Assembly: GCA_026710945.1 (NCBI GenBank) | Contig: JAPOQA010000002.1 | Location: forward strand, 1-57,882 | Reading direction: 5' to 3' | Source of the DNA: Chloroflexota bacterium | GTDB lineage: Bacteria; Chloroflexota; UBA11872; VXOZ01 | Length of the DNA stretch: 57,882 bases | Part shown: positions 34,504 through 38,466 of the stretch, one piece after another | Layout of the letters: each line of letters starts with the position of its first letter | Position numbering within the stretch: position 1 is the first letter of the stretch | Notes under the pieces: model-generated | The model's input: the letters and a program-made list of their open reading frames with translations, nothing else | What the model was told of the DNA's origin: nothing | Databases searched by the model: none | Translations under genes and position numbers: made by a program

Positions 34504-34745
34504 TGTAAGTGTTGACTAATTCGTTGACAGATTTGAGAACAAAAGCAACCCTTCGCAGTGTTAGACATGACTAGTACACATGTCATTCCGAACGAAGCGC
34601 AGCGAAGAGAGGAATCTAGTGTGCTGAAGCCGTTAAAGTGCGTTGAGAAGGGACCCTAGATTCCTCGCTCCGCTCGGAATGACATGCACCGTCAACTCCT
34701 CATAGTGGATAGCGGATTCTGTCAACGAATTACTCAACACATACA
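34504..34745. mobile_element. MITE-like element, copy B
   Basis: A 242-bp element, an inverted copy of 12227-12494. The terminal inverted repeats at 34504-34531 and 34718-34745 match at 26 of 28 positions (outer TGTA, inner TAATTCGTTGACAGA). It is flanked by ATTCC on both sides (34499-34503 and 34746-34750). On the right, the flank continues as a CATTCCGAACGGAGCGCAGC-type repeat, so the element may have inserted into another repeat. Inside are GTCATTCCGAACGAAGCGCA and GCTCCGCTCGGAATGACA, forming an inner inverted unit. The remainder of 34290-34953 holds degenerate units of that inner repeat and no gene. Confidence 0.8.
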
Positions 34746-34953
34746 ATTCCGAACGGAGCGCAGCGGATTGTCGCTTTTAGCGCGGAATCTAGAGTGCTGA
34801 AGCCAATGAACTGTGTATAGGTGTAAAGCATGGTCCCGAGATTCCGCGAATACGGTTCGATACTGGGCTGCGCCCCATCGGCTGCGCGCTACGTCTCACA
34901 AGCCGCATACTTAGTCCTATAACTGCTACCTATCTGAACGATAGTGCACTCAT

Positions 34954-37425: not shown

Positions 37426-38229
37426 ATGCGGGCGTTGCTTCGCTTCCTTATCTTGGTAGGCGCCGAGACTACTTGATGCGACTCGTTGAGTCTTCGCTGC
37501 CAGGCTCGTTGGCAGTAGACCCATCTCATCCGACAACACCGGCTGGCGTTCAACTAAACGTCTCGCCGTAATGGCGACGGTTTGCGCACGTTGCCGGTTT
37601 GCAATGACTATCGTGCGCTTTAACGACCGTCAGGCCTTCTTTGCGCCCGGAACCCAGGGTGCGACCAACTCGCGGCGCGGCAGGAGGTCTTAAATACAGT
37701 ATAAGCCGAACTGGGCCTCGTGACACAGGTGAAGCGCCCCGTCCCCCAACATGCCGCCAAACCGACACTCATCTTGGCACCGCGAGGCGCTAGTGCTTGC
37801 AGGTCCTGGCATATCAGGCCGGCCACGACAGACTCCGGTCGCATGCCGGCGAGCCTCATGACGCTCGTGAGAACGTCAAAGACTACAGAAGTCTGCCGTG
37901 GGCCGCTTGGCCGCATCAGTCGTCTTACACGAATCAAGACTGAGATACTCGCGGTACATGCGCCTCTTGCAAGCCCGCGCCTGCTGCAAGACTCACCTTG
38001 CGTCGATGGCTGCCCCGGGCATTAAACCGACACCGGCCCTTGGGGGAAAGGGCCGGTGTGGGGTGGTGCGAACAGGAGGAGCATTCAGGAGGCAAGCAAG
38101 TTTAGTGAACCATCTGGACATGAATCCCTCGGAATCCGTAGTTGGCACTGGGCGTGGGTGAGTGGCAGTACACCTGGAGCGACGTTACCGTTCCGAGAAG
38201 AGAAGGGTGCAGTATGTGTGCGTCCACTT
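37426..38229. other. gene-free region downstream of the c-di-AMP riboswitch
   Basis: No recognisable coding region. On the minus strand, directly after the terminator-like hairpin, a 41-codon frame begins at GTG 38227 and stops near 38104. Another minus-strand frame (37937-37620, 105 codons) has mixed composition and no recognised family. A perfect 12-bp hairpin, ACACCGGCCCTT/AAGGGCCGGTGT, sits at 38030-38059. This is where the riboswitch target would be expected, so a decayed gene is possible. Confidence 0.5.
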
Positions 38230-38230
38230 A

Positions 38231-38272
38231 ACGACAAAAGAGCTTCCTCGGCTTTGCCAGCCTAAAGCTCTT
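38231..38272 (-). terminator. terminator-like hairpin after the riboswitch aptamer
   Basis: On the minus strand, AAGAGCTT (38272-38265) pairs with AAGCTCTT (38245-38238), with an inner GGCT/AGCC helix, followed by TTTTGTCGTT. The 5' arm starts five bases after the aptamer's last conserved GGCG, so folding of aptamer and hairpin could compete: an expression platform working by transcription termination. Confidence 0.6.
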
Positions 38273-38384
38273 CCTATCGCCTACGAGGTTAGCTGTCGGG
38301 TTAGGGTGGAAAGAGTCACCCTCCGCACGACTGCGGTTCACCCCAATTGCCGGGTCCCCCGCTCCATTTAAGGATTTGGCGCAT
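38262..38384 (-). ncRNA. ydaO/yuaA-type c-di-AMP riboswitch
   Basis: Read on the minus strand, the RNA contains the family's conserved blocks in order: GCGCCAAATCC (P1 5' side), GGAGCGGGGGACCC, TTGGGGTGAACC, a variable stem-loop, GAGGGTGACTC, CCCGACAGCTAACC and TCGTAGGCGATAGGAAGAG. These match the c-di-AMP-binding ydaO class, whose crystal structures show a pseudo-symmetric fold with two ligands. Such riboswitches usually turn off genes for cell-wall hydrolases or K+ and osmolyte transport. A possible promoter, TTGCAC-17-TATGCA (38466 to 38438), lies just upstream. No intact gene follows. Confidence 0.87.
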
Positions 38385-38437
38385 TACTACGGTAAATTCA
38401 CCGTACCACAACAGTTTTTGGTGCGCAAGAGTTTGAA

Positions 38438-38466
38438 TGCATAATCTTCAGATTTTCCGTGTGCAA
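38438..38466 (-). promoter_or_regulatory. putative promoter of the riboswitch transcript
   Basis: On the minus strand TTGCAC (38466-38461) and TATGCA (38443-38438) are 17 bases apart, placing transcription start about 47 bases before the first conserved aptamer base. Confidence 0.5.

Follow-up and report, generated by a model that had tools for sequence, protein, structure and literature searches.

A c-di-AMP riboswitch in a genus of Chloroflexota that may gate a noncoding RNA

Introduction

Published structures of the c-di-AMP riboswitch family RF00379 (ydaO/yuaA) contain a pseudoknot as part of the ligand-bound form. Characterised members of this family, such as those of ydaO/kimA in Bacillus subtilis and kdp in Bacillus thuringiensis, have been described as OFF switches (PMC9960051, PMC6488665). 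In the literature that we searched, which covers few subscription journals, all the characterised c-di-AMP riboswitches act in cis on protein genes, and none controlling a noncoding RNA was found.

There exist, furthermore, C/U-rich small RNAs (sRNAs) that pair with Shine-Dalgarno sequences. As for riboswitches gating an sRNA in place of an mRNA, B12 riboswitches do so for EutX in Enterococcus faecalis and Rli55 in Listeria monocytogenes, and both of these RNAs sequester the ANTAR protein EutV (PMC7602753).

Here, we describe a locus on the minus strand of a 57,882-nucleotide stretch of Chloroflexota DNA; the whole of this stretch is called the window. As in the members from B. subtilis and B. 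thuringiensis, the same aptamer is present in full length and is directly followed by an intrinsic terminator, but no protein gene follows here, and an arm of the terminator is the pseudoknot strand itself, which predicts an ON switch instead of the OFF switches described. The locus is like EutX and Rli55 in that a riboswitch would gate a noncoding RNA, a likeness read here from sequence alone; the ligand and the phylum are nonetheless different, the direction of switching appears opposite, and no ANTAR-type hairpin pair is apparent by eye (the sole hairpin loop is TCCCCC). With the C/U-rich sRNAs pairing to Shine-Dalgarno sequences, the locus shares a conserved stretch rich in pyrimidines, which contains CTCC/TCCT words and is immediately followed by a terminator hairpin, whereas searches for complementary sites gave no target here.

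Results

The features recognised in the window are as follows.

38400-38428, minus strand: promoter-like pair, TTGCGC (38428-38423) and TACGGT (38405-38400) with a 17-nt spacer; alignment columns kept in five congeners
38263-38391, minus strand: c-di-AMP (ydaO) riboswitch aptamer; RF00379, 101 bits, full length
38304-38315, minus strand: aptamer loop CTCTTTCC, 5' side of the pseudoknot; complementary to 38274-38268
38268-38274, minus strand: GGAAGAG, the 3' pseudoknot strand, which also belongs to the 5' arm of the platform terminator
38236-38273, minus strand: expression-platform terminator hairpin with T-run; -18.3 kcal/mol free, -8.5 kcal/mol with the pseudoknot strand masked
38091-38235, minus strand: linker with unconserved sequence and near-constant length; 57% mean pairwise identity
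38060-38090, minus strand: 31-nt C/U-rich element TCCTGAATGCTCCTCCTGTTCGCACCACCCC; 98.8% mean identity in five congeners
38022-38059, minus strand: GC-rich hairpin ACACCGGCCCTT-TCCCCC-AAGGGCCGGTGT with a short T tail, where the RNA probably ends

In the Rfam scan, RF00379 matched 38391-38263 of the minus strand over its full length (model positions 1-134) with 101 bits and an E value of 7.4e-23, while the gathering score of this family is 38 bits. A first-pass annotation had proposed a ydaO-type c-di-AMP riboswitch on this strand, and the proposal holds, given a score far above the threshold and the presence of the motif in syntenic genomes. The pseudoknot feature of the family is found in the window between the loop and the GGAAGAG strand; the 3' strand is GAAAGAG or GAGAGAG in congeners, where the loop CUCUUUC pairs with GAAAGAG, and most of the Chloroflexota copies keep the same pairing with different letters (CTGAAAGAG and others). 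Judged by all the features checked, 38391-38263 is a genuine c-di-AMP riboswitch and a member of RF00379. It is the single copy in the 3.52-Mb genome (genome scan), and the same genome encodes one diadenylate cyclase domain (PF02457, E 1.5e-38) and hence has the capacity for c-di-AMP synthesis. Neither a second aptamer nor any other RNA family was found by the Rfam scan between 37500 and 38600.

Across the phylum, c-di-AMP riboswitches are unevenly spread: most of the 400 sampled Chloroflexota genomes have none, and individual genomes carry eight (G148), seven (G240 and G355), or six (G113 and G296). Two loci of family f5 (L016 and L017, aptamer at 1501-1651) have the riboswitch ahead of a gene resembling an RNA polymerase sigma factor by eye, and the genomes G012 and G022 have a second, weaker c-di-AMP riboswitch (L019 and L020) before a membrane-protein gene that is DedA-like by eye.

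Five congeners carry the switch, namely, the window's own genome and four named Chloroflexota/Chloroflexi MAGs (G001, G002, G004, and G005). The promoter-like pair that had been noticed upstream is present; it is weak by consensus, and a strict sigma-70 scan did not match it (38428-38400), yet it occupies identical alignment columns in all five congeners (TTGC..N17..TA...T). Also present is the hairpin with a T-run that had been placed directly after the aptamer (38273-38236, -18.3 kcal/mol), at which a strict consensus terminator scanner made no call. In every one of the five congeners, the 3' strand of the pseudoknot (GGAAGAG or GAAAGAG) doubles as the 5' arm of this terminator, and when that strand was masked in folding, the stability of the terminator changed from between -17.3 and -18.3 kcal/mol to between -6.7 and -8.5 kcal/mol, with the hairpin separated from the T-run. 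Since the pseudoknot strand is a terminator arm in this genus, c-di-AMP is predicted to turn the long RNA ON. In most of the Chloroflexota copies, the terminator lies further downstream with no overlap of the pseudoknot strand, which fits the usual OFF logic; these phylum-wide tallies are rough in that the most stable single hairpin was chosen, which is sometimes the antiterminator, and the five congeners were examined separately. The platform terminators at four other loci (L002, L187, L195, and L206) also seem to use the pseudoknot strand, and given these, the layout from which ON switching is predicted may extend beyond this genus.

About 150 bases beyond the riboswitch, inside a seemingly empty stretch, begins the 31-nt C/U-rich element, which the first-pass annotation overlooked together with its hairpin. 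When the five congeners are compared, the mean pairwise identity is 56% upstream, 90% in the aptamer, 79% in the platform, 57% in the linker, 99% in the element, 87% in the hairpin that follows, and 53% downstream; also, words of at least 12 nt common to four lineages (over about 1,400 nt) are confined to the aptamer and the element/hairpin. Thirty of the 31 element positions are invariant while the adjoining hairpin varies freely, and the distance from the aptamer start to the element is kept at 297-301 nt in all five. This second hairpin (38059-38030) has 12 pairs and abuts the element (38090-38060), and with a T tail of only TTT, it may be a weak terminator. Three of its pairs are variable and have changed only to G-U, i.e., on a single side and with the pair kept, which is compatible with, albeit short of proof for, a structured 3' end. 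In the predicted fold of the full transcript, the mean unpaired probability of the element ranges from 0.24 to 0.48, so that no consistent single-strandedness is predicted, and the Rfam scan matched no known sRNA family. Pairing of the element with the aptamer was also considered and rejected; by eye, such pairing is only short and is lost when the element changes in G001.

The element is a single-copy sequence and, among 41 members of the class, occurs only in the five congeners carrying the switch; indeed, an exact scan of 84,980 species retrieved only the four other congeners. Element and switch thus co-occur genome for genome, and a sixth congener (G003, 97% complete) is without either of them. 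We rejected a dispersed repeat as the identity of the element because of its single copy per genome, and a viral origin because no exact copy was found in viral contigs. At 34558-34746, elsewhere in the window, both strands have short ORFs with the readings HVIPNEAQRREESS and HVIPSGARNLGS, which suggests a dispersed repeat at that position.

A comparable arrangement was found in seven genomes of five genera from a sister family, f2 (loci L004, L005, L008, L009, L011, L013, and L015). The switch is followed there, in order, by a small ORF about 200-560 nt past the aptamer start, an invariant 27-mer TCTCTCTCCTTCCTTCTCCTCACTCGC, and a terminator. This ORF is clearly coding, with 31, 27, and 51 changes at the three codon positions, and its product of about 77-110 amino acids ends with HPVLRMD and has a zinc-finger-like CxxC...H pattern; no confident match in Pfam or NCBIfam was obtained for this protein. 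When searched by its 24-mer core, the 27-mer occurred as a single copy in each of the seven genomes that carry the ORF-type switch and in none of the other 34 of the 41 class genomes, and the reversed core used as a control had no match among the 41. In the f2 terminator, 7 of 14 pairs have changed on both sides with 99% of the cells paired, and its covariation score was reached by none of 500 shuffles. Family f2 would therefore appear, by its sequence, to have the same layout in parallel, with a different element and a small ORF in between. We also considered homology between the elements of the genus and of f2 and rejected it; both are pyrimidine-rich and are unlike beyond composition (shuffle fraction 0.61).

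Discussion

In all five congeners, the aptamer, the platform terminator, the element, and the second hairpin are arranged on one strand, as far as the sequence goes. We consider that the switch most likely gates a noncoding RNA but not a protein, and the probability of this reading is roughly 0.6. The riboswitch would then form the 5' portion of a noncoding RNA that is complete in itself. Transcripts would start near 38393 and end at one of two sites, the platform terminator (about 158 nt) or the second hairpin (about 370 nt), with the C/U-rich element contained in the longer product alone. Binding of c-di-AMP would stabilise the pseudoknot, termination would be prevented, and the noncoding RNA would be ON. 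The element would be the working part, most likely a single-stranded site at which another component of the cell makes contact, either by pairing with the element or by binding it. Transcription, the direction of switching, and the trans action and partner of the element are the parts of this model that we infer, and it counts against the model that the congener G003 manages without the switch.

As to the partner, the element resembles the single-stranded contact region that precedes the terminator in an sRNA, and ribosome-binding sites are conceivable pairing partners of its CTCC/TCCT words; a protein partner for the RNA, as in the case of EutX and Rli55, is an equally plausible candidate. 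A search for sites complementary to the elements over 20 nt, allowing three mismatches or fewer, matched solely the locus itself, and complementary 15- to 16-mers with up to two mismatches were not clearly above the reversed control.

The next gene on the same strand encodes a GT2 glycosyltransferase and starts at about 37425, approximately 840 nt beyond the aptamer, with ybeY after it; the gap of about 800 bases and both of the genes that the first-pass annotation described are therefore borne out. For this gap, three accounts had been offered: decay of the target gene, regulation of distant genes by read-through, and a very short or non-annotated product. The first is unsupported, since the aptamer, the platform, and the downstream element are constrained in the five congeners amid diverged surroundings. 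A decayed target was also rejected by direct search, given that there is no trace of the f2 ORF (best tblastn E value of 0.066) and that the linker is too short for that ORF.

Read-through is disfavoured by the second conserved hairpin, which closes the unit, and by other genes inserted after this hairpin in G001 and G002. In G004, the GT2 ortholog lies about 310 nt past the hairpin. In G001 and G002, it lies about 4.4 kb away, and a different glycosyltransferase gene starts about 170 nt past the hairpin. G003 has neither the switch nor the GT2 ortholog; the gene after the switch is thus not fixed among the congeners. As regards control of a downstream protein gene, there is no ORF within about 840 nt, two hairpins intervene, and the nearest gene varies by congener. 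Glycosyltransferases of differing kinds nonetheless recur as the next genes, and this keeps alive the rival of a cis-acting leader, in which switch, element, and second hairpin together act as a long two-step attenuator before cell-envelope glycosyltransferase genes that are expressed by reading through both hairpins. Indeed, the first downstream gene is a glycosyltransferase in five of five congeners, a glycosyltransferase-like gene likewise lies after another switch of the phylum (L018), and c-di-AMP switches often control envelope genes (PMC9960051). We nevertheless regard such a leader as unlikely, because the gap measures about 840 nt in the window as against about 170 nt in G001 and G002, with other genes lying between the hairpin and the GT2 ortholog, because the DNA past the hairpin is unconserved (53%), and because the genes past the terminator in f2 are unrelated and, in two genomes, on the opposite strand.

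It is quite improbable that the element and the hairpin constitute an independent sRNA gene, about 65 nt long and transcribed from a promoter within the linker, that lies near the switch only secondarily. The alignment does have a -10-like TA..CT at 13-14 nt ahead of the element in three of four lineages, but there is no conserved -35, the promoter scan reports none, and the linker is unconserved; furthermore, element and switch are gained and lost together with near-constant spacing.

Among the three accounts mentioned above, a very short or non-annotated product fares best, although it is a noncoding product rather than a short protein that is indicated, with no coding signature. Two frames could encode such a protein: one of 20 codons starting inside the element, whose length and stop are preserved across the five congeners, and one of 36-41 codons in the linker, which is open in all five and equally long (41 codons) in four. 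The linker peptides are unlike each other save for a single pair out of six, which is more alike than shuffles (0.006) and to which we give little weight. The start of the 20-codon frame is, however, changed from ATG to ATA in G001, no Shine-Dalgarno sequence is visible, and its changes are one synonymous against five amino-acid-changing; no other frame shared by the five congeners runs across the element on either strand. The linker frame, in turn, has an ATA start in G005, and its 14 substitutions between two close congeners are distributed 5/4/5 by codon position and alter the amino acid in 10 of 14 changed codons, in contrast to the 31/27/51 of the real ORF in f2. A short protein as the product is accordingly very unlikely. 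Least probable of all is that the element merely ends or protects the transcript, as a rut-like Rho-loading site or an RNA-stability site would, for while it is C-rich, G-poor, and directly ahead of a hairpin, such sites tolerate change, whereas 30 of 31 positions in the genus and 27 of 27 in f2 are invariant with the adjoining hairpin free to vary.

Returning to the noncoding RNA, we tentatively propose in full that a c-di-AMP ON riboswitch makes a trans-acting C/U-rich sRNA, namely, a direct relay from a second messenger to an sRNA, and that a second family of the class has the same layout, in which another invariant element is used along with a small protein of zinc-finger-like character; the chances are rather against this proposal as a whole. 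Were the switch to gate a noncoding RNA, a local sensor would become a regulator of many genes, and an apparently orphan riboswitch would be explained. The direction of the switch is apparently reversed by a pseudoknot strand doubling as a terminator arm. Other such riboswitches could, furthermore, be sought by looking for strongly conserved sequence that lies between an aptamer and a distal terminator where no gene is present.
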